From Alsobacter soli (GTDB lineage: Bacteria; Pseudomonadota; Alphaproteobacteria; Rhizobiales; Beijerinckiaceae), in assembly GCA_945883115.1 (NCBI GenBank), contig CAMCXA010000003.1, positions 1 to 64,000 on the forward strand: a stretch of DNA of 64,000 bases, written 5' to 3'. Below the pieces are notes generated by a model. That model worked only from the letters and a program-made list of their open reading frames with translations. It did not search any database and was not told the origin of the DNA. Shown here piece after piece: positions 24,330 to 43,521 of the stretch. Position numbers and translations under genes: made by a program. Each line of letters opens with the position of its first letter. The stretch's first letter is position 1.

Positions 24330-25382
24330 CTATTTGACTTCAAATGTAGGCTTGAACCAGGCAGGTGCGAGGCTCGCATCTAAGTTGATCGAGTGCAGTC
24401 GCGCTTGATCGACTATCTTGATCGCGGGTCCGGCATGAACCACACTTAGTGTACCTTCCAGCGCACGAACGGCCTGATCAATTGCTAGCTTTCCCTGCAT
24501 GACCGGGGAGTCTGTCGGCGCAGCCAGCACTTTACCCCGCTTTATTGCGCGGAATGTACCGTGGGTAAAATAATCGGCCAAAATAGTAACTCGCTTCGAA
24601 AGGCCTTTTGCTCTCAGCAAACTTACGGCGGCGTCGGCCGTAACTGCGCTGCCGATAATGTATTCAATATCTGGGTGCGCTTCTAAAACCTCTTCAAGGA
24701 GCAGGAGTTGGGCTTCGAAGCCAGTATCGCCCCATTTGACAGCCACGACATCTGCCGAACTTCTTTCCATGGAAGTCCGGAAGCCTTCTTCGATGAATTT
24801 AACCCATCCCGCTCCTTCGGGGCCAGGAAACCATGCAACTTTCGTCGATTTTGAACCCTTCGGATGAAGGTTTGAATAGTAATTGCCGATTGCTGACCCC
24901 ATCGCGACCCATGAAACACCCGTTTTCGCGGTTATTCCTTCGCTGTTGATATCATTCACTGCAGCAACAACCGGAATGTTTTTTGCAATTTCACGGATTG
25001 TCGGTGTTAGGCCATCGAATGAAACCGCGCCCACGATCAAGGCATCTGCATTTTCTGAACATGCCCGAATATGGGCAATTTGACGTTCAAGGTTGGGATA
25101 GCCGCCGGCTTCCAGGACTTGCAAATGAACGCCAAGCCGGCGCGCATGCGCAACCATGCCGTAATTGACAGACAACCAGTATGAATCCTTGAGGTGAGGA
25201 TAAGAAGCGCAGATGCGCCAGTGCTTCTGCGCCACATTCAGCGGTTCGTAATCGACGCTATCCGATGTCCCATCATAGTCGAAAGCCGGTGTCCATGTAT
25301 CGATAGGCCAAACCTGTTCAGCGTATCCGGAATCAGGAACCGAAAGGCCGATCAACAATGCAAGAAGTAAACCTTTTATCAT
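24330..25382 (-). CDS. torT: TorT-like periplasmic sensor partner (TMAO-binding)
   Basis: A periplasmic protein of about 350 residues with signal peptide MIKGLLLALLIGLSV and a probable site after GYA. The body is a type I periplasmic-binding fold of the TorT kind: HWRICASYPHLKDSYWLSVNYG, LEAGGYPNLERQIAHI and GWVKFIEEGF. In E. coli TorT binds trimethylamine N-oxide and presents it to the kinase TorS. The frame continues upstream to GTG 25409, but ATG 25382 starts the signal peptide. It is divergent from torS, as in E. coli. Confidence 0.8.
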   Translation of the reverse strand: MIKGLLLALLIGLSVPDSGYAEQVWPIDTWTPAFDYDGTSDSVDYEPLNVAQKHWRICASYPHLKDSYWLSVNYGMVAHARRLGVHLQVLEAGGYPNLERQIAHIRACSENADALIVGAVSFDGLTPTIREIAKNIPVVAAVNDINSEGITAKTGVSWVAMGSAIGNYYSNLHPKGSKSTKVAWFPGPEGAGWVKFIEEGFRTSMERSSADVVAVKWGDTGFEAQLLLLEEVLEAHPDIEYIIGSAVTADAAVSLLRAKGLSKRVTILADYFTHGTFRAIKRGKVLAAPTDSPVMQGKLAIDQAVRALEGTLSVVHAGPAIKIVDQARLHSINLDASLAPAWFKPTFEVK

Positions 25383-25461
25383 CCTGCTATTCCAATTGCC
25401 AATGATCACTATAACATCAACCTATCTGGTTTTAGATTTGGAACAAGGTCAGGAAGTTGGA

Positions 25462-28395
25462 ATGTTTTTCTCGCGACTCGGAATAGGCGCCCGGTTATTT
25501 CTCGCGTTTATTGCAATTACCGCGGTATCCCTGACATCGGGCTTCACAAGTTGGCTCATCTTGCGCGAAATCTCAGAAGCGCAGATGAAAATGAACCTTG
25601 AGGCGCTACCTGCTGTTGCGGTGACGGAAAGAATGGCCGACCAGAGCGCGCGGCTTGTTGCTGCGGCACCTACATTGATCAGCTCAAAAGACACAGAATC
25701 CTGGTCAAAGCAGGACGCAAGCCTCGCATTATTGGCAAACGAGATTCAAAAATCTGTTGCAAATGCTCGGCTCTCTTTACTTGATCGCGGATCAGTGACG
25801 CAATTGGCAGAAACAGCTGACGCCCTTATTTCCAATTTATCACTTCAAAGCTCGCTCGTCAGGGAGCGACTGCAACTGGATCACGAATTTTTGGTTCACT
25901 CCGAAAAGTCTATTTTTGCGGCAACATCAATTGTGTCGCTTTCCGAGACGCTAGTTTCAAATGCGTCTGCAGGGGCTTCGGCTGTTGTTGCCGGACTTTA
26001 CGGATTGATTGATGACCCGGCGCGCCGAGAAGAGTCCTTCGATGCTCTTGATCGGCTGATCGAGCAGGATATTTATCTCCTCGACCGCATGTCCGAGTTG
26101 CGGTTGCGGAGTTCACAAATCGGTCTGTTGGTTAACCGGCTGACGCGCGCAATAAATCAAACAGAAGTTGCCGATATTGCGTTTGGTTATCAAGAACAGC
26201 TCCGCGTTGTGAGTAGACGGGTCGCAAGTATCGATGACCCCGTTCGGCGTGAGCAAGCCGAGGGATTTCTCTCGGTGCTTGCAAGTGCAGGTCGAAAAAC
26301 AAGCGCGGGCGATAGCCTCTTCAGCCAACGTCTCAGACTGCTCTCGATTGGTGATGAGCTTGATCGTTTGGCTCGTGTGAATCGCGATTTGTCGGGCTTT
26401 GTTAGTCAGATTGCGCAGGCTATGCTGAAGCAATCCGAGCAGTTCGCGCGAACGACGACCGAACGATCATCAGCGTCGGTAGAAGCCGGGTGGTATGGGC
26501 TTATCGCTTCATCCCTCGTTTCCTTGGTCATTTCAGGCCTGATTGTCTGGCTATATGTCGAGCGGAAGGTTGTTCGGCGTATTCTCAATCTATCCAAATC
26601 AATGCAGCGGCTCACGGATGGCGATTTGTCCGTCGATGTTAAAGAGGAAGGGACACATGAGCTTCGCGCACTGTCGAAAGCTGTGCGGGCCTTTCGCGAT
26701 GTGTCCCTTATGCGCCGTTCGCTGGAAGAAGAGCGAGAACGGACCAACGAGGAACTTCGGCGCCATAGGGAAGAGTTACAGATGCTTGTCAATGAAAGGA
26801 CAAGCCAGCTCAGCGAGATAAACACAAAATTGCAGCGCGAGGTTGTCCAGCACGCCGATGCCCGAAACAGGGCGGAGAGCGCAAGCCGGGCGAAGTCGGA
26901 CTTTCTGTCGACAATGAGCCACGAGATCAGAACCCCGATGACGGGGATGCTTGGGCTACTTAGAATTTTGCACGAGTCCCCGCTCCTCGAAGAACAAAAA
27001 AAACAGCTCGCTGTCGCGGCAGCATCTGGCGCGGCCCTGATGGGCATTCTGAACAGTATTCTTGATTACTCCAAAATCGAGTCCGGAAAAATCATTGTCG
27101 ACCCGGTCACTTTTAGCCTCGGGGAAACATTAGAGGGTATTGTTGTTTTGATGCGGCCATCAGCCAGGGAAAAAGGGCTTTCGCTGCATTTGGAAATTGA
27201 TCCCAATCTGGCGAAGGCTCATATCTGCGATAACGGAAAACTAAGGCAAATTGTTTTCAACCTCGTCAGCAACGCGATCAAATTCACCGAAACGGGTGAA
27301 GTGGTCGTCAAGGCAAAACTATTGTCCGAGCAGTCCGGCCATCAAAACTTAGAACTCTCGGTTTCAGACACCGGAATTGGCATTTCCAAGAGTGACCAAA
27401 AGCAGATCTTTGAGTCGTTTACACAAAAAGATGCATCGATCACAAGGCGTTTTGGTGGCACCGGTCTTGGGCTTGCGATCGCGCGCCAATTGGCGACACT
27501 TCTGGGCGGGGCTTTGACGGTTCGTTCAATCCCACGACGCGGGAGCACGTTCAGTTTTCGGTTATCTCTTCCGACCAGTGACCTGCCACTTGTGAAACGA
27601 CAGCTAAAAGATGCGAAGAAAACCCTCTCGAAAAGCTTGAAAATCCTGATTGTTGAGGATGATTCCACGACCCGTATCGTTGCGCAGTCCTTTCTTGAGA
27701 ATTTAGGCCATAGTGTCGTAACCGCGGCAGATGGTCGATCGGCGATCGATAACTTCGAGAATGTAAATCCTGATCTCGTTTTCATGGATATCAGTTTGCC
27801 GGGGATCGATGGCATTCAAACGGCGGCACAAATGCGCCAATTATCAAGTCACAAGTCGTTTCCGATCATTGCAATGTCTGCCCATGTTTTCCAGGATGAA
27901 GTTGCCCGTCATCTTCAATCGGGCATGAATGGTTTTGTCGGCAAACCTTTTACACCGGAAATGCTTGAGACGGTAATTAATGACGCCATCAACGGCAGAG
28001 CAGTTGCTCGGTCATGGACCGCTGTCGACCAAGAAGCATTCAGAAAAGATCTTGAGGCGCTCGGGACGGACGCCATGAAGAAGATTTTGGCCGCCGCTCA
28101 GGAAGCATTGCCGATAAGGTTCGTCGAAATGCAGGAGGCATTGACTGCCAAAGACATGCAACTGCTCGGCAGCCTTGCCCATGCAACACGAAGCTCCGCT
28201 GCTTCCGCAGGATTTCCTGGATTATATGCGAGTGCCGAAGCTCTTGAATTGGCCGCAAAAAATCAAAAAATATCGACGGCGCGCAAGCATATCCGCGAGT
28301 GTAAATCACGTTTCGAGATCGCGATGCGCGAGGCTAGCGAAGTTCTGGAAATGGATAAATTTCATAGTCAGGATAATTTACCTGCAAAAAGGTAG
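25462..28395 (+). CDS. torS: TorS-like tripartite hybrid sensor histidine kinase
   Basis: A 977-residue unorthodox kinase. Membrane segments lie at about 12-34 and 346-368 with a long helical periplasmic sensor between. HAMP (RRILNLSKSMQRLTDGDLSV) and a coiled coil follow. The HisKA motif FLSTMSHEIRTPM puts the phospho-His at about 487, and the ATPase boxes NLVSNAIKFTETG and GGTGLGLAIA come next. A receiver domain has Asp776 in LVFMDISLPG, and an HPt domain has His907 in LAHATRSSAASAGF. This is the TorS phosphorelay layout. ATG 25462 follows AGGAAG and starts the first membrane segment; earlier in-frame starts at 25396 and 25402 are less likely. The 3' end overlaps torR tail-to-tail by 28 bp. 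Confidence 0.85.
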   Translation: MFFSRLGIGARLFLAFIAITAVSLTSGFTSWLILREISEAQMKMNLEALPAVAVTERMADQSARLVAAAPTLISSKDTESWSKQDASLALLANEIQKSVANARLSLLDRGSVTQLAETADALISNLSLQSSLVRERLQLDHEFLVHSEKSIFAATSIVSLSETLVSNASAGASAVVAGLYGLIDDPARREESFDALDRLIEQDIYLLDRMSELRLRSSQIGLLVNRLTRAINQTEVADIAFGYQEQLRVVSRRVASIDDPVRREQAEGFLSVLASAGRKTSAGDSLFSQRLRLLSIGDELDRLARVNRDLSGFVSQIAQAMLKQSEQFARTTTERSSASVEAGWYGLIASSLVSLVISGLIVWLYVERKVVRRILNLSKSMQRLTDGDLSVDVKEEGTHELRALSKAVRAFRDVSLMRRSLEEERERTNEELRRHREELQMLVNERTSQLSEINTKLQREVVQHADARNRAESASRAKSDFLSTMSHEIRTPMTGMLGLLRILHESPLLEEQKKQLAVAAASGAALMGILNSILDYSKIESGKIIVDPVTFSLGETLEGIVVLMRPSAREKGLSLHLEIDPNLAKAHICDNGKLRQIVFNLVSNAIKFTETGEVVVKAKLLSEQSGHQNLELSVSDTGIGISKSDQKQIFESFTQKDASITRRFGGTGLGLAIARQLATLLGGALTVRSIPRRGSTFSFRLSLPTSDLPLVKRQLKDAKKTLSKSLKILIVEDDSTTRIVAQSFLENLGHSVVTAADGRSAIDNFENVNPDLVFMDISLPGIDGIQTAAQMRQLSSHKSFPIIAMSAHVFQDEVARHLQSGMNGFVGKPFTPEMLETVINDAINGRAVARSWTAVDQEAFRKDLEALGTDAMKKILAAAQEALPIRFVEMQEALTAKDMQLLGSLAHATRSSAASAGFPGLYASAEALELAAKNQKISTARKHIRECKSRFEIAMREASEVLEMDKFHSQDNLPAKR

Positions 28396-29078
28396 CCCTC
28401 ACAATGCGATGTAACGATCATTCTGGGTTTTCGGGAATCATCTTTCAGTTTTTGGCGCAATCGCCGAACCACCACATCGACTGTTCGATCCGATGGATCC
28501 CAATCACGATGGGCAATTTCGTGCAAGATCCGGTCACGCGACATGACTTCCCCGGGATGATTGCAAAGCAACGCTAATGCCTTGAACTCTGCTCTGGTGA
28601 GGTCCTGAAAGTCGCCGTCATTTGCCTGAAGGGTTCGATGCGATAAATCGAGTGTCCAATTGTCGAACTTGATGATTGTTCTTGCTTCACCGATACCGCG
28701 GCTTCTTTTAACGCGACGTAAAAGGTTCTTGACACGAGCAAGTAGCTCCCTCTGCTCGAAGGGCTTTGTTACGTAATCATCGGCGCCCATTTCCAAGCCG
28801 ACGATCCGGTCAATGCTGTCGGTTCGTCCTGTTACCAGAATAATACCGATCTCCGACTTCTCTCTTTGCTCGCGGGTGAGTTGCAGACCATCTTCGCCGG
28901 GAAGATTGATATCAAGCATGATCAAATCCGCAGGCCGCTCCGCAAGGATGCGGCGCATCTCGGCGCCATCTTCGGCCTCGCTAACCCGATAACCTTCCTG
29001 ACTGAAATAGGCAGCTAACTTCGTCCGAGTGACGGGGTCGTCTTCCACGATCAGAATATGGGCTTTCAGGTTTCTCAT
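28368..29078 (-). CDS. torR: TorR-like OmpR-family response regulator
   Basis: A 236-residue regulator. The receiver domain has ILIVEDDPVT, phospho-acceptor Asp56 in LIMLDINLPGEDGL, and IILVTGRTDSIDRIVGLEMG followed by ADDYVTKPFE. This stretch is very close to E. coli TorR. A winged-helix domain follows (LTRAEFKALALL, RTVDVVVRRLRQKL). It should be phosphorylated by TorS. Repeated TTAACAA motifs begin 10 bp upstream of its ATG, consistent with autoregulation and control of the divergent transporter. Confidence 0.88.
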   Translation of the reverse strand: MRNLKAHILIVEDDPVTRTKLAAYFSQEGYRVSEAEDGAEMRRILAERPADLIMLDINLPGEDGLQLTREQREKSEIGIILVTGRTDSIDRIVGLEMGADDYVTKPFEQRELLARVKNLLRRVKRSRGIGEARTIIKFDNWTLDLSHRTLQANDGDFQDLTRAEFKALALLCNHPGEVMSRDRILHEIAHRDWDPSDRTVDVVVRRLRQKLKDDSRKPRMIVTSHCEGYLFAGKLS

Positions 29079-29087
29079 CTTATTATT

Positions 29088-29187
29088 TTAACAAATCTTA
29101 ACAATTCTGTCCATGCTTTTAACTAATCAGAACCAACCGCTTAACAACTGCTTGTTAGCATCGGAGTTGCTTGCTCAGCATTGTTAA
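29088..29187. promoter_or_regulatory. cluster of TTAACAA repeats, candidate TorR binding sites
   Basis: TTAACAA occurs at 29088 and 29098 (exactly 10 bp apart) and at 29141, with a near match TTAACTA at 29119. TAACAACTGCTTGTTA at 29142-29157 is a perfect 16-bp palindrome. An inverted copy TTGTTAA lies at 29181. The starts 29088, 29098, 29119 and 29141 are roughly one or two helical turns apart, as expected for an OmpR-family regulator. The site serves both torR and the binding-protein gene. Confidence 0.55.
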
Positions 29188-29249
29188 AACTCTCGCTGTC
29201 ACGACTTGAGTACGCAAACGTTGAAAATGCCAGCTTTAAGGGGAATGAT

Positions 29250-30200
29250 ATGAATTTCAGTAAGCTTACAATTAGTAGCGCCTTGGCAATCGGCCTTATG
29301 GCTTCTGCTCCAATGACGACGATGGCGGCTGACTCTGCTGATCCGATTAAAATTGTCGTAAATAATTGGTCTAGTCAGGTTGTGCTCTCCAACATCATAG
29401 GCCAACTTCTTCAATCTAAAGGGTTGAATGTCGAGTACAAGTCATCCGATACGCAACTTCAGTATACCGCTATGACGGCGGGCGATATGGATTTCCAGGT
29501 CGAAGTCTGGGAAGGCTCGCAAGCTGAGTCTTTTGATAAGGCGGTAAAAGCGGGTGTTATTGATCTCGGCTCGCATACTGCGGTCACGCGCGAAGATTGG
29601 TGGTATCCGACGTATATGAAAGAAATGTGCCCAGGCCTCCCAGACTGGAAGGCGCTTGATGCATGTGCGGCAAAACTTGCGACCGCAGAAACTGGTAAAA
29701 AGGGCCGTTTCGTTGGGCCACCAGCCGACTGGGGCAAGCATTATTCTGATCGGATTCAGGCTCTCAAGATGAACTTCCAGGAAGTGCCTGTAGGTCAGGC
29801 TGCAACGCTTTGGGCTGAATTGCAGGCGGCATATGACCGAAAGGAGCCAGTTGTAATCTTCAACTGGACACCAAATTTCATCGAAGCAAAGTTTGAGGGT
29901 GAATTTGTCGAATTCCCGACCTATGAGCCTGCTTGCCTTACAGACAAAAAATGGGGTTCAAATCCGGATGCCGTTTATGACTGCGGCGCGCCAGCCAAAG
30001 GCTATTTGAAAAAAGCGGGTTCCAAGCAGCTTGGAGAAAAATGGCCCGCAGCAACAGCGATGTTGAAGAAGGTGAACTTCACAAATGCGATGATTGCTTC
30101 CGCTGCAGCATTGGTAGACGTCGATGGAATGACGCCTGAAGATGCGGCAAAAAAATGGATTGCAACCAATGAAACAACGTGGAAAACTTGGGTAAACTAA
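29250..30200 (+). CDS. quaternary-amine ABC transporter binding protein (ProX/OpuAC family, possibly TMAO)
   Basis: A 316-residue periplasmic protein; signal peptide from MNFSKLTISSALAIG to about MAA. The body is an OpuAC-type domain with aromatic residues suited to a trimethylammonium ligand (VNNWSSQVV, VEVWEGSQ, REDWWYPTY, FNWTPNF) and several cysteines that could form disulfides. Family ligands are glycine betaine, choline and, for TmoX, trimethylamine N-oxide. Because TorTSR-like genes lie beside it, TMAO or a relative is the best guess. ATG 29250 follows AAGGGG; the frame is open from 29181 but that stretch is regulatory DNA. Confidence 0.85.
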   Translation: MNFSKLTISSALAIGLMASAPMTTMAADSADPIKIVVNNWSSQVVLSNIIGQLLQSKGLNVEYKSSDTQLQYTAMTAGDMDFQVEVWEGSQAESFDKAVKAGVIDLGSHTAVTREDWWYPTYMKEMCPGLPDWKALDACAAKLATAETGKKGRFVGPPADWGKHYSDRIQALKMNFQEVPVGQAATLWAELQAAYDRKEPVVIFNWTPNFIEAKFEGEFVEFPTYEPACLTDKKWGSNPDAVYDCGAPAKGYLKKAGSKQLGEKWPAATAMLKKVNFTNAMIASAAALVDVDGMTPEDAAKKWIATNETTWKTWVN

Positions 30201-30218
30201 GCTCGTAAAAATACGTTG

Positions 30219-30257
30219 GAGCCGGGTGTAAAGAGTTTTTTCACCCGGCTCTTTTTT
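30219..30257 (+). terminator. intercistronic Rho-independent terminator
   Basis: GAGCCGGGTG (30219-30228) and CACCCGGCTC (30242-30251) form ten perfect pairs, followed by TTTTTT. It lies between the binding-protein gene and the ATPase gene and should let the binding protein be made in excess. Confidence 0.85.
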
Positions 30258-30325
30258 GAATTAGGCAAGCTTCGATTGTTGCATATTGCACGAAAGCGTC
30301 GGGGCTCAGATTGGCGGGATTTTAA

Positions 30326-31351
30326 ATGACGGATCGGGCTCAGATTTCCTGCCGTAATCTCTGGAAAATCTTTGGTGATAGCCCGAGAGATTTTCTCGAA
30401 AGGCACAGCTATTCACCAACGGACGCCGATTTCAAAGCAGAAGGCTATATTGGTGCGGTACGGGATGTATCCTTTGATGTCTTTCCAGGTGAAATCCTTG
30501 TGATCATGGGACTTTCCGGATCCGGAAAATCAACGCTGATAAGAGCTATTACTCGACTTAATGATCCGACAGCGGGGGAAATTCTTCTTGACGGTGCTGA
30601 TCTCCTGAAGACGACCTCAGCTGAGTTGATTGATCTGCGCAGACACAAAATGGGAATGGTTTTTCAACATTTCGGGCTTCTGCCTCATCGCAATGTTCTT
30701 GAAAATGTAGCATTTCCTCTTGAAGTCAGGGGAAGCTCGCTCATCGAGCGGGAGGCAAGAGCCCGCGAGATGCTGAAACTTGTGGGGCTTGAGGGGCGGG
30801 AGACCTATTTCCCGCGGGAATTGTCAGGAGGACAGCAACAAAGGGTCGGCATCGCTCGTTCTTTGGCTGTTGGGCCTGATATATGGTTTCTCGACGAGCC
30901 ATTTTCCGCTTTAGATCCCCTGATCAGACGCGAAATGCAGGACGAGTTCTTACGGTTGCAGCGTATGCTGAAGAAGACCATCGTCTTTATCACGCACGAT
31001 TTCGACGAAGCGGTTAGGTTGGCTGACCGCATCGGCATTATGAAAGATGGGCGTCTCGTCCAATTGGCGAACCCAGAAGTGATGATTTCGCATCCCGCAG
31101 ATGACTATGTTCGGGAGTTTGCCAAAAATGCGCCTCGTGACAAAATTATTTCTGTTGGAAGTATTATGTCAGTTGGTGATGGTAAAAGTATCGATATAAC
31201 TGTCTCTGAACATGACAAAATTGGTCATGTGGCAGCAATGGTTCTGGCCTCGGATCAGAATATTGGGGTTACAAATGCAGAGGGGGCGGTCATAGGCGTT
31301 GTGACGCGTCAAGCGATGATCGCAGCTCTCTTTCCGGAAAGTCGATCATGA
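30326..31351 (+). CDS. glycine betaine/TMAO-type ABC transporter ATP-binding protein (ProV-like)
   Basis: A 341-residue ATPase of the ProV/OpuAA group. The family N-terminal extension ISCRNLWKIFGD precedes the domain. Walker A is GLSGSGKST at residues 62-70, the signature LSGGQQQRV at about 166, Walker B IWFLDEPFSALD and the H-loop FITHD. A C-terminal tail of about 90 residues resembles a reduced CBS-type regulatory region. Its stop overlaps the permease start (ATGA). Confidence 0.88.
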   Translation: MTDRAQISCRNLWKIFGDSPRDFLERHSYSPTDADFKAEGYIGAVRDVSFDVFPGEILVIMGLSGSGKSTLIRAITRLNDPTAGEILLDGADLLKTTSAELIDLRRHKMGMVFQHFGLLPHRNVLENVAFPLEVRGSSLIEREARAREMLKLVGLEGRETYFPRELSGGQQQRVGIARSLAVGPDIWFLDEPFSALDPLIRREMQDEFLRLQRMLKKTIVFITHDFDEAVRLADRIGIMKDGRLVQLANPEVMISHPADDYVREFAKNAPRDKIISVGSIMSVGDGKSIDITVSEHDKIGHVAAMVLASDQNIGVTNAEGAVIGVVTRQAMIAALFPESRS

Positions 31352-33309
31352 CCGTTTTTAGCGCGATGGCCGAACCAGGGCGGGGAACTGATCATAAATC
31401 TCGATATATCGAGGCCGTAGCGCTAGGTTTAACGCTCTTACTAACAGTATTTTTATTCAAATTTTATCCTGAGACCGACAAATGGCCAACCGAGTGGGTT
31501 GTGCCATTTCGTGAATGGGTGACCAGTGCATTCGCCTGGTTTGCAACATTTGCAAAGCCTGCGACCCGTGCAATTGCATGGTTCATCACCCAACCGCTCG
31601 CCCTCGTCGAGGCGATGCTCTATCGGGGGCTTCCGGCATGGGGATGGCATCCGCTTCCATGGACGGCTGTTGTTGCGGGAACAACAATTCTCGGGCATTG
31701 GATTGGCGGGCGACGGCTCGCGCTTTTCTCCGGGTTGTCATGCTTTTATCTTGCGATATTCGGGCTATGGCCGGATGCAATGCAAACTCTGGCAATCGTG
31801 ATTGTCACCGTTCCACTTGCAGCCGCACTCGGCCTTGCGCTCGGAATTTGGGCAACACGGAACCCGAGTGTAGAGCGCAAGTTGAACACGATGTTCGATG
31901 TGATGCAGGCAACGCCGCATATGGCCTATCTTGTCCCGGTTATTATATTGTTCGGCTTCGGACAGGTGCCGGCACTTCTGGCTACGTTGATCTTTGCGAT
32001 GCCCCCTATGGCACGCTGCACCATCCTGGGGATCAGGACGGTACCCTCTGAAATTCTTGAAGCGGGGCGGATGTCGGGATGCACGCCAAGCCAATTGTTG
32101 TGGAAGGTCGAGCTACCTGCCTCACAGCAGACGCTTTTGCTCGGGCTCAATCAAGTAGTCATGCAGACGCTGGCCATGGCAGTCATCGCATCTCTTGTCG
32201 GAGCGTCGGGCCTCGGGCAAAAATTACTCTTCTCGCTTCAGCAGTTACAGGTGGGCAAGGCTGTCGAGCAGGGTATTGCCATTACGCTGATCGCAATTGT
32301 GCTTGACCTCATGACCCAGGCTTTCATGCACCGAACGCCGCCACGTTTTCCTGAAGGTGCCTCTTCGCTCCGTCGCCATCGCCATCTTGCAACGTTTATT
32401 GTCGCAACAATGATTGCCATTATTGTTGCGCTAATGGTTCCTGCCCTGGCAGTTTTTCCAAAAGAATTCATGTGGAGTTTTGCCGGACCAATCAATGATG
32501 GGGTGCGTTGGGTCTCAAAGAACCTATTTTCCACGATCAAGCCTGTGCGTGACTGGATAACGATCTGGTTGCTCCTTCCGATGCGGGATTTTTACCTCTG
32601 GCTGCCATGGCCCGTCGTTCTCGGTGTGCCCGCGCTGATCGGTCTGAAACTTGGCGGACCGAGGCTGGCGCTGGTGCCTGTTGTGCTTTTTGGCTTCCTG
32701 ATGTTGGCGGGATTTTGGACACCGCTTATATTCACGATTTATCTTGTCACCGCTTGCACGGTGCTTTGCATCCTGATTGGTGTGCCAGTGGGCATATGGG
32801 CTTCCCGAAGTGCGCGCGTTGCTCGTGTGGTCATGGCGATTTGCGACACGTTGCAAACCTTCCCGAGCTTCATCTACCTGATCCCGGTCATCATGCTGTT
32901 TCAGACGAGCGATCTCTCAAATGTGATTGCCATGCTGTTTTACGCGACAGTGCCAGCAATCCGTTATACGTACCTTGGAATGAAGCGTGTACCGCAAACA
33001 GTGCTGGAAGCCTCCACAGCTTCGGGGGCAACGCGATCTCAGAATTTATGGAAAGTGGAACTCCCGATCGCGTTCCCGGAAATCATGCTTGGCATCAACC
33101 AGACGATCATGTTCGCATTGGCGATGGTGGCGATCACGGCACTGATCGGGTCGCGCGATCTTGGGCAGGAAATCTACAAGGCGCTGCCGGGGGCTGATAC
33201 GGGGCGGGGATTACTCGCCGGGCTTGGGATTGCGTTTATCGGCATTACCGCCGATCGCCTCATCGGCGCTTGGGCGAAGCGGCGTAAAGCTGAGTTAGGG
33301 CTGATGTGA
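31348..33309 (+). CDS. fused tandem permease of the quaternary-amine ABC transporter (ProW-like, duplicated)
   Basis: A 653-residue membrane protein with two ProW-type permease domains in tandem. Each has its own coupling loop: ILEAGRMSGCTPSQLLWKVE in the first half and VLEASTASGATRSQNLWKVE in the second. A single chain would thus supply the whole membrane channel, as in TmoV/some choline transporters. The ATG overlaps the ATPase stop, and the next gene begins inside its last codons, so the operon is tightly coupled. Confidence 0.88.
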   Translation: MTVFSAMAEPGRGTDHKSRYIEAVALGLTLLLTVFLFKFYPETDKWPTEWVVPFREWVTSAFAWFATFAKPATRAIAWFITQPLALVEAMLYRGLPAWGWHPLPWTAVVAGTTILGHWIGGRRLALFSGLSCFYLAIFGLWPDAMQTLAIVIVTVPLAAALGLALGIWATRNPSVERKLNTMFDVMQATPHMAYLVPVIILFGFGQVPALLATLIFAMPPMARCTILGIRTVPSEILEAGRMSGCTPSQLLWKVELPASQQTLLLGLNQVVMQTLAMAVIASLVGASGLGQKLLFSLQQLQVGKAVEQGIAITLIAIVLDLMTQAFMHRTPPRFPEGASSLRRHRHLATFIVATMIAIIVALMVPALAVFPKEFMWSFAGPINDGVRWVSKNLFSTIKPVRDWITIWLLLPMRDFYLWLPWPVVLGVPALIGLKLGGPRLALVPVVLFGFLMLAGFWTPLIFTIYLVTACTVLCILIGVPVGIWASRSARVARVVMAICDTLQTFPSFIYLIPVIMLFQTSDLSNVIAMLFYATVPAIRYTYLGMKRVPQTVLEASTASGATRSQNLWKVELPIAFPEIMLGINQTIMFALAMVAITALIGSRDLGQEIYKALPGADTGRGLLAGLGIAFIGITADRLIGAWAKRRKAELGLM

Positions 33310-34499
33310 TATTTGGTGTTGCACATCGGAACTTCCGAGTTCTTTTCGGTGTGCTCGTCCTCAGCTTTGCTTTCGGTTCGCTCCACGCTTTCGGAGTGCT
33401 GATCGAGCCTTTGCAAAACATGCTCGAAACAGAAAGGGGGAGCATAAGTCTCGCCTATTCCCTTTCGATCATCGGCGTGACGACTGGTGTTTTTGTGAGT
33501 ACGCATCTCAACCGGATTCTAACACCTCAACAAATTGCTATTCTATGCGGAGTGATGGGGGCTTCTGGATTGGCGCTCGTTTCCAATTGGCCCTCTCTCG
33601 GCATGCTCCTGCTCGGATATGGTGTTCTTTTCGGACTCAGTAACGGGCTTGCCTATAGTCTTTTTCTTGAACAGGCAGCACGGGCTTTGCCGCAATCAAA
33701 GGGATTGGCCCTTGGCATTGCGACAGCAATGTATGGCGCCGGTGCGGCGGCGTTCACTCAAATTCTGTCTCCTCTTGCACATACTGACACACTTGACACT
33801 GCAATTGCGGTGCTTTCGTTTAGCGTGTTGCTTGCGGGCGGCCTTGCCGCCCTGATGTTTTCACGAGCGCGGATTGTCGTTGAGCAAGGAAACCTGCCCG
33901 CCCCAAACCTTCACCCTCAGGCGAGAGATATTTTCCGTTTGTGGGCGATCTATTGTCTTGCCGCTTCCGGCGGATTAATGGTCATTGTTCACGCGGTCGG
34001 TTTGATGCGGGGTTTCGGGGCTTCCGAGATATCGATTATGGCAGCGCCCACTTTGAATGCTGTCGGCAACATTGCCGGGAGCCTTTTAGGCGGCGTGATT
34101 GCGGACCGGTTGACAGCGCGGCGGGCCCTGGCCGTGCCGCTTTTGATTTCCCTTATTTCACTGGTAGTCATGCGTGTCGTCAGTTCGGAAGTTGCTCTGC
34201 TAGGACTGATGACGGCGTGCGGTTTCGGCTATGGCGCACTGATTGCGATTGTTCCGGTTGTAATCCGCAAGATATTTGACCCCGTTCACGTTGGCTGGGT
34301 TTTTGGACGAGTTTTTACTGCTTGGGGCATAGCTGGCTTGGTGGGGCCCTATGTAGCTGGCAATATTTTCGACCACACGCATGGCTATGAATTAGCCATC
34401 ATCGCGTCAATATGCTGTTTGGCATGCGCTGCCGGGCTCAACATGTTTGATAACTCCAGAACACACCAGGAAACAAAAGACAGGGAGTTAGATAAATAG
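33306..34499 (+). CDS. MFS transporter (OFA/monocarboxylate-like)
   Basis: A 397-residue protein with about 12 hydrophobic segments. It resembles the oxalate:formate antiporter-like MFS group (FGVLIEPLQNMLETERG near the first helices, TAWGIAGLVGPYVAGNIFD near the end). The GTG start overlaps the permease stop (GTGA), so it is translated with the uptake system and may move a related compound or product. The substrate cannot be assigned. Confidence 0.8.
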   Translation: MIFGVAHRNFRVLFGVLVLSFAFGSLHAFGVLIEPLQNMLETERGSISLAYSLSIIGVTTGVFVSTHLNRILTPQQIAILCGVMGASGLALVSNWPSLGMLLLGYGVLFGLSNGLAYSLFLEQAARALPQSKGLALGIATAMYGAGAAAFTQILSPLAHTDTLDTAIAVLSFSVLLAGGLAALMFSRARIVVEQGNLPAPNLHPQARDIFRLWAIYCLAASGGLMVIVHAVGLMRGFGASEISIMAAPTLNAVGNIAGSLLGGVIADRLTARRALAVPLLISLISLVVMRVVSSEVALLGLMTACGFGYGALIAIVPVVIRKIFDPVHVGWVFGRVFTAWGIAGLVGPYVAGNIFDHTHGYELAIIASICCLACAAGLNMFDNSRTHQETKDRELDK

Positions 34500-43444: not shown

Positions 43445-43521
43445 TGGCGCGCCCGGAACGATTCGAACGTCCGACCCTCAGATTCGTAGTCTGATGCTCT
43501 ATCCAGCTGAGCTACGGGCGC
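43445..43521 (-). tRNA. tRNA-Arg (anticodon ACG)
   Basis: Read on the minus strand, the acceptor stem GCGCCCG pairs with CGGGCGC. The D-arm has AGCTCAGCTGGATAGAGC, the anticodon arm is TCAGA-CTACGAA-TCTGA with anticodon ACG, and the T-arm contains GTTCGAATC. A G discriminator and an encoded CCA follow. The 77-nt length is normal. Its 3' end faces the accessory region to the left. Confidence 0.95.

Follow-up and report, generated by a model that had tools for sequence, protein, structure and literature searches.

A TorTSR phosphorelay that probably targets a trimethylamine N-oxide import operon in an Alsobacter soli genome

Introduction

What does a TorTSR phosphorelay, taught as a switch of anaerobic respiration, control in a locus where torR lies divergent from a transporter operon? 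The question is raised by a 64,000-nucleotide stretch assigned to Alsobacter soli (contig CAMCXA010000003.1 of assembly GCA_945883115.1, positions 1 to 64,000; hereafter the window), in which torT, torS and torR stand next to genes for an ATP-binding cassette (ABC) importer of the TmoXVW type. A first-pass annotation of the window had read the arrangement as trimethylamine N-oxide (TMAO) sensing in the service of uptake, and that overall interpretation is supported here: tmo genes occur in 36 of 80 torT loci, and the promoter concerned carries a TorR operator of the Escherichia coli type. We consider it highly likely that the phosphorelay in this locus targets a TMAO import operon. The parts were already known, and no description of torTSR next to tmo genes was found in the literature searched, which consisted mostly of titles and the beginnings of abstracts and included few subscription papers; as far as that literature goes, the combination is new. 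Neither torT, torS, torR nor TMAO occurs as a whole word in PMC12421898 or PMC9414599.

Results

Locus layout and the TorTSR proteins

By reading of the open reading frames of the window, the gene order along the plus strand is torT(-) torS(+) torR(-) tmoX(+) tmoV(+) tmoW(+), followed by a major facilitator superfamily (MFS) gene (+) (Table 1). All genes of the ProXVW/TmoXVW-type transporter with fused double permease and MFS carrier, which the first-pass annotation had placed in the position of torCAD, were confirmed and, as it had also stated, no molybdoenzyme, Tor cytochrome or chaperone gene was seen among the open reading frames beside torTSR. Its claim that the E. coli plan is kept holds for torR, which is divergent from the target operon in both loci, whereas torT and torS have exchanged places relative to the K-12 order torS(-) torT(+) torR(-) torC(+). 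The three sensor and regulator families are likewise common to both; the target is an ABC importer in the window as opposed to torC, torA and torD in E. coli. The neighbourhood appears to be more than chance, as it recurs in many torT loci and its array of TorR-type boxes far outscores any other in the 64-kb window.

TorT, the only one over cut-off in its genome, reaches 316.8 bits against TIGR02955 (cut-off 310) and 387.3 against NF008185 (cut-off 200), and is 63, 62 and 57% identical to the TorT proteins of three other torTSR loci. Its best solved relatives are 4yhs, named as an ABC substrate-binding protein (319.7 bits), and the TorT structure 3o1h (217.7 bits), of Vibrio origin. TorS exceeds the cut-off of TIGR02956 (689.5 bits; cut-off 676.5) and combines the Pfam TorS sensor domain PF21689 with HAMP, HisKA, HATPase, REC and Hpt domains. 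Its phosphorelay residues, assigned by motif, are H509, D798 and H929 in the numbering of the 999-amino-acid open reading frame; the true start is perhaps the ATG at 25462. TorR scores 312.4 bits against NF008034 (cut-off 275), with D56 as the receiver aspartate, again by motif.

TorR-type operator and promoter

Between torR and tmoX lie four box cores, TTAACA at 29088, TTAACA at 29098, TTAACT at 29119 and TTAACA at 29141. Their spacing of 10, 21 and 22 bp is that of the E. coli torC operator, the cores of which stand at 47, 57, 78 and 100 of the stretch examined. A matrix learned solely from strict 10-bp pairs (48 boxes), with no use made of E. coli, the positions of boxes 3 and 4, the -10 hexamer or tor-free loci, selects exactly the four E. 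coli tor boxes, whose sequences PMC9239176 reports. When the window is excluded from the matrix, its array scores 44.3, against 9.3 for the next-best place in the 64 kb. The strict pair TTMACANNNNTTMACA has a single occurrence in the genome, at torR-tmoX, compared with two occurrences of the reversed control pattern, and stands in 24 of 36 tor-linked tmoX promoters as against none of 16 tor-free ones (one of these only 76 bases long). In the 34 torR-tmoX intergenic stretches shorter than 600 bp, window included, the count of 7-mers repeated at a 10-bp period was 113, against 10.9 +/- 4.6 in 20 shuffles, with further repeat peaks at 11, 18, 21 and 22 bp; over 36 promoters the four-box spacing 10/21/22 ranks first of 2187 combinations, the first spacing being built into the matrix.

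Within 711 kb from 41 loci, arrays scoring at least 12 were found at 34 sites, spread over 30 of the loci: 27 before tmoX, three before tdm, the product of which converts TMAO to dimethylamine and formaldehyde, one about 400 bp before tmoV, and three without a detected downstream gene (close to contig ends in L083 and L092, ahead of a tmoX fragment in L098). None was present in the 199 kb of 16 tor-free tmo loci, and the other torT loci (39 loci, 760 kb) hold four sites, in L123, L124, L150 and L158, all torA-linked. In 28 of 29 arrays, the window's among them, a TANNNT hexamer lies at +15 from the box-4 core, and none of the 29 has one at another offset from 8 to 27, the hexamer having played no part in finding the arrays; E. 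coli torC has TAAGAT at +15 likewise. The window and E. coli torC promoters therefore have in common four boxes at 10/21/22 bp with a -10 element 15 bp on, and differ in the box core, which is TTAAC[A/T] in the window and TTMACA in its relatives but TTCAT in E. coli, a difference of one or two letters between window and E. coli. Sensor families, operator and promoter geometry together suggest that TorR controls tmoX here as it does torC in E. coli.

Upstream of tdm, a strict-pair search in 11 loci returned nothing. The matrix scan placed arrays before tdm in the Aminobacter loci L082, L088 and L091, and also at the corresponding position of L083, close to its contig end; in the remaining tdm-holding loci, five of which have tdm after tmoW, no array of at least 12 precedes tdm. 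For Aminobacter these arrays predict a TorR regulon of two operons, tmo and tdm. In A. ciceronei and A. carboxidus (L082:2614-3219, L083:2461-3066), tmoX and torR are separated by some 3.9 kb of inserted DNA, which carries a second response-regulator-like match, 37-38% identical to TorR.

Survey of torT loci

Searching named genomes with a TorT alignment gave 257 stretches, 232 of which encode a relative; the best 80 of these 232, a sample weighted towards close relatives of the query, were analysed as stretches of up to 21 kb with fixed score thresholds. The survey for torTSR next to tmo or pro genes that the first-pass annotation had proposed thus found tmo genes in 36 of 80 torT loci, 34 with at least one tmo gene and two (L095, L098) with a tmoX fragment at a contig end. 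A torA-like gene is present in 16 of the 80, more than 8 kb from torT in four Photobacterium loci, and no locus among the 80 holds both. Neither was detected in 28 loci: L092, L093, L107 and L111 are cut by contig ends, one is Pelagibius L096, and 23 belong to Photobacterium, Thauera or other Rhodocyclaceae, where torA may be situated outside the stretch examined.

The 36 tor-tmo loci include Aminobacter, Aestuariivirga, Tropicibacter, Marivita, Pseudogemmobacter, Paracoccus, many alphaproteobacterial metagenome-assembled genomes, two such genomes filed as Gammaproteobacteria (L094, L099) and one contig filed under an actinobacterium (L115). Cultured Aminobacter with this locus include A. anthyllidis (L088) and A. 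aganoensis (L090). In 11 of them tdm is present, behind tmoW (L097, L104, L105, L110, L113), behind torT (L082, L088, L091, L106) or together with dmm-like genes on the torT side (L118, L119); weaker Tdm matches in L099 and L112 fell below threshold.

Some individual loci are worth recording. A torTSR-tmo locus on a contig filed under Enemella evansiae (Actinomycetota; L115) has a TorT that groups with Roseobacteraceae and is perhaps a contaminating contig. Pelagibius sp. Alg239-R121 (L096:6871-11095) has torS and torT, with no torR or tmo match in 21 kb, and its neighbouring genes are mgs- and gmaS-like, ammonium-transporter-like and folate-like. The C-termini of the TorA-like proteins of Azospirillum (L121:881-3547), Thauera (L126:11046-13844) and genome G079 (L201:9018-11687) match the end of the TorC model at 25-34 bits, below cut-off, making reductase-cytochrome fusions possible.

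Transporter and predicted cargo

The protein encoded at 29250 scores 371.6 bits against 4xz6, compared with 49.7 for the next solved relative, a betaine-type substrate-binding protein, and is the sole strong OpuAC match in its genome (174.4 bits; runner-up 22.8). It is 51% identical to Ruegeria pomeroyi TmoX, the protein of structure 4XZ6, and retains six of the seven TMAO-pocket residues W55, W102, F106, E131, W177, F220 and W222 given for TmoX in PMC8918994. The position of F106 is Q, and F89, its SAR11 counterpart, matters for binding according to the same paper. Among 33 other tor-linked binding proteins this position is F in 24, M in eight and Q in one, and among 16 tor-free ones F in 11 and M in five; the remaining six residues, E131 and all four tryptophans included, are invariant in both sets.

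The Q in the pocket, together with a permease that exceeds the choline-type TIGR03416 (388.6 bits; cut-off 363) and an ATPase that falls slightly below the betaine/proline/choline-type TIGR01186 (325.5 bits; cut-off 326.6), could mean that the signal, the cargo or both are another methylated compound such as betaine, choline, dimethylsulfoniopropionate or trimethylamine, and that an osmolyte or choline system has been fitted with a TorTSR-like switch. We judge this unlikely in view of the distance between the two structure scores, the 40-42 bits reached against the ProX and choline binding-protein models (cut-offs 215 and 379), the pocket residues kept in 33 of 33 other tor-linked proteins and the tdm genes of the tor-tmo loci. 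Transporter, pocket and tdm linkage rather point to TMAO as the putative cargo of the 29250 transporter and to feeding as its purpose.

Fusion of the two permease halves is common beyond this locus, matches of about 1.8 kb covering both being usual in tor-linked and tor-free tmo loci alike. For the MFS protein the nearest models are of the lactate and oxalate/formate type, all below cut-off; an MFS match after tmoW is also seen in L084, L086 and L101.

TMAO catabolism and the search for a reductase

The genome, 98.4% complete at 2.6 Mb in 104 contigs, encodes on contig C30 a Tdm of 792 amino acids (NF053776, 1242.6 bits; cut-off 1100) and a GmaS-like type III glutamate-ammonia ligase (678.9 bits; cut-off 469.6), and on contig C33 Tmm (NF058570, 842.5 bits; cut-off 675) together with a 'trimethylamine N-oxide permease' of the APC type (880.7 bits; cut-off 690), which may serve at high TMAO concentrations. 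Genes like mgs, mgd and dmm lie near the Tdm and Tmm genes, named only from translations and from the gene order of R. pomeroyi, with no model reached over cut-off. As Tdm and Tmm are encoded on other contigs of the same genome, TMAO is most likely food.

The first-pass annotation had named nutrient or protectant as possible uses; the former is favoured, because Tdm and Tmm exceed their cut-offs and tdm accompanies 11 of the 36 tor-tmo loci, and the latter is disfavoured. TMAO is a known osmolyte and the transporter class takes up osmolytes, which would fit a TorR-controlled operon for osmoprotection with TMAO kept as a compatible solute. That reading is improbable for a genome in which Tdm, Tmm and a GmaS-like protein over cut-off are joined by Mgs-, Mgd- and Dmm-like genes (by reading), and given that the box array itself precedes tdm in three of the tdm-holding loci.

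No TorA-type enzyme was found in the genome, in which three PF00384 proteins were detected and torC and torD were not searched for genome-wide: one is NuoG by reading of its translation, one a formate dehydrogenase (939.4 bits; cut-off 666), and the third, of 695 amino acids and adjoining a gene read as recG, reaches 96-102 bits against the TorA models (cut-offs 909 and 1465). That TorTSR still serves respiration through a reductase elsewhere, the transporter being merely a neighbour, is very improbable: in G163, another genome with a tor-tmo locus, a TorA-like gene does lie outside that locus (735.8 bits, short of the cut-off of 1465), but the array lies directly before tmoX, its strict pair is single in the genome, no TorA was found despite near-completeness, and the tor-tmo linkage recurs across the survey.

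Table 1. Features of the torTSR-tmo locus in the window
Feature	Position	Strand	Evidence
torT, periplasmic binding protein, sensor partner of TorS	24330..25409	-	two TorT equivalogs over cut-off
torS, hybrid sensor kinase	25396..28395	+	TIGR02956, TorS sensor domain, kinase domains
torR, OmpR-type response regulator	28368..29078	-	NF008034
TorR-type boxes (four)	29085..29147	+	matrix scan
-10-like hexamer TAGCAT	29156..29161	+	15 bp past box-4 core start
tmoX-like substrate-binding protein, OpuAC-type, ATG at 29250	29250..30200	+	Pfam OpuAC, 4xz6 match
tmoV-like (ProV-like) ATPase	30326..31351	+	TIGR01186 score
tmoW-like fused double permease	31348..33309	+	two BPD_transp_1 stretches
MFS carrier, start overlapping tmoW stop	33306..34499	+	MFS_1

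Discussion

In the mechanism that we propose, periplasmic TorT would bind TMAO and then switch TorS on, and phosphate would pass from H509 through D798 and H929 to D56 of TorR, a path predicted from homologues. Phosphorylated TorR would bind the four direct boxes of the torR-tmoX intergenic region and activate transcription of tmoXVW-MFS, whose promoter shows the layout of E. coli torC; as box 1 starts 6 bp ahead of the start codon of torR, TorR may restrain torR itself as well. TmoXVW would import TMAO, Tdm from another contig would demethylate it, and Dmm/GmaS/Mgs/Mgd-like enzymes would complete its breakdown, TMAO serving as a nitrogen and perhaps carbon source, not as an electron acceptor. 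TMAO as signal, phosphotransfer, activation and uptake are thus all predictions from sequence. With the same TorR-site spacing and a TMAO-type importer as target, the same signal most likely turns on feeding, not breathing.

Several results weigh against this mechanism, in addition to the glutamine in the pocket. TorS falls below the narrower NF008543 (403.6 bits against a cut-off of 982). Since the matrix was learned from 10-bp pairs of the same loci, the first spacing and the scores of these loci are partly circular. No array reaches 12 in seven of the 36 tor-linked tmoX promoters. The same is true of 12 of the 16 torA-linked loci, those of Azospirillum and Thauera included, so that either other boxes are used in the latter or the matrix is tuned to the tmo type. 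No second array was present near tdm or tmm of the window's own genome in the 20-kb stretches scanned (L057, L058, L059, L060), the rest of the genome having been scanned with the strict pair only. Finally, when 385 genomes were drawn evenly from the class, tmoX-like genes were seen in 43 at E 1e-45, of which 19 reach at least 300 bits; three of these 19 have torTSR beside tmoX, and none was found beside it in the other 16 within the stretch examined, several being cut by contig ends, so that the sensor seems not to be needed for TMAO use in general.

The TmoXWV/Tdm/Tmm system of R. pomeroyi resembles that of the window's genome in its TmoX-type binding protein and in the Tdm and Tmm equivalogs. 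Its regulation differs: R. pomeroyi tmm and tdm are under TmoR (GntR) and TmaR (AraC) according to PMC13390433, whereas TorTSR stands at the transporter operon in the window. That paper, which concerns trimethylamine catabolism, nowhere contains the words TorT, TorS or 'two-component', and TorTSR would, if our interpretation is correct, provide an extracellular TMAO sensor for a pathway in which only TmaR and TmoR are named there. It would also mean that a regulon with another purpose, eating as against reducing TMAO, has retained the same sensor, relay and promoter geometry, and that a feeding-type TorTSR exists in Aminobacter, Aestuariivirga and some Rhodobacterales. Aminobacter is known for growth on methylated amines. 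For annotation, genomes labelled with the 'TMAO reductase system' proteins TorT, TorS and TorR may have no TMAO reductase.

Evolution and related systems

The first-pass annotation had spoken of a system rewired from anaerobic respiration. The target indeed differs from torCAD, but the direction of change was assumed and is not settled by the trees. A quick TorT tree of 92 rows gives one tmo/torA change, the 28 rows with neither gene seen not being counted. A careful tree of 49 of the 92 rows, from which those 28 rows, four long-branch rows including E. coli, and near-copies were dropped, needs two changes because Thauera (branch length 1.9) falls among the tmo rows; the share of its 200 bootstrap trees with a single group was 0% for torA and 2% for tmo. 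Two changes are likewise needed in the TorR tree (53 rows). The first split of the careful tree parts eight of the 12 torA rows from all of the tmo rows, which leaves the ancestral state unsettled. It is possible, though we would suggest it only tentatively, that there is a whole catabolic TorTSR branch, mostly in Alphaproteobacteria and with a regulon of tmoXVW plus tdm in some genera, whose feeding use is as old as or older than the respiratory one. Bearing on this idea, the non-sensor TorT relatives found are alphaproteobacterial binding proteins, and the TorT of the window scores higher against the ABC-type 4yhs than against the TorT structure 3o1h.

In the draw of 385 genomes, TorT relatives at E 1e-40 or better occur in 21 (23 matches), with torS and torR beside them in four genomes only (G000, G163, G194, G289). 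A TorT match alone was rejected as a proxy for torTSR, as 16 of the 19 remaining matches adjoin ABC ATPase matches; the analysis covered no more than 3-4 kb around the matches of G081 and G367, and contig ends are close to some others. These TorT-like proteins beside ABC genes (4yhs was deposited as CUT2-type) are up to 50% identical to the TorT of the window and, unlike it, are not accompanied by a TorS/TorR pair; they are probably transport binding proteins, not sensors.

Other arrangements were also seen. In genome G079 (L201:7912-11687), a gene for a TmoX-type binding protein lies directly behind one for an 889-amino-acid TorA/DMSO-reductase-like protein, with no torTSR match in 17 kb. In L045 and L046, TorT-like proteins (40-42% identical) have large hybrid kinases nearby whose match to TorS is confined to the kinase and receiver parts, L046 having several receiver proteins besides; these are perhaps another binding-protein-coupled kinase system. 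Elsewhere in the window, a tRNA-Arg(acg) gene is located at 43445-43521 on the minus strand.

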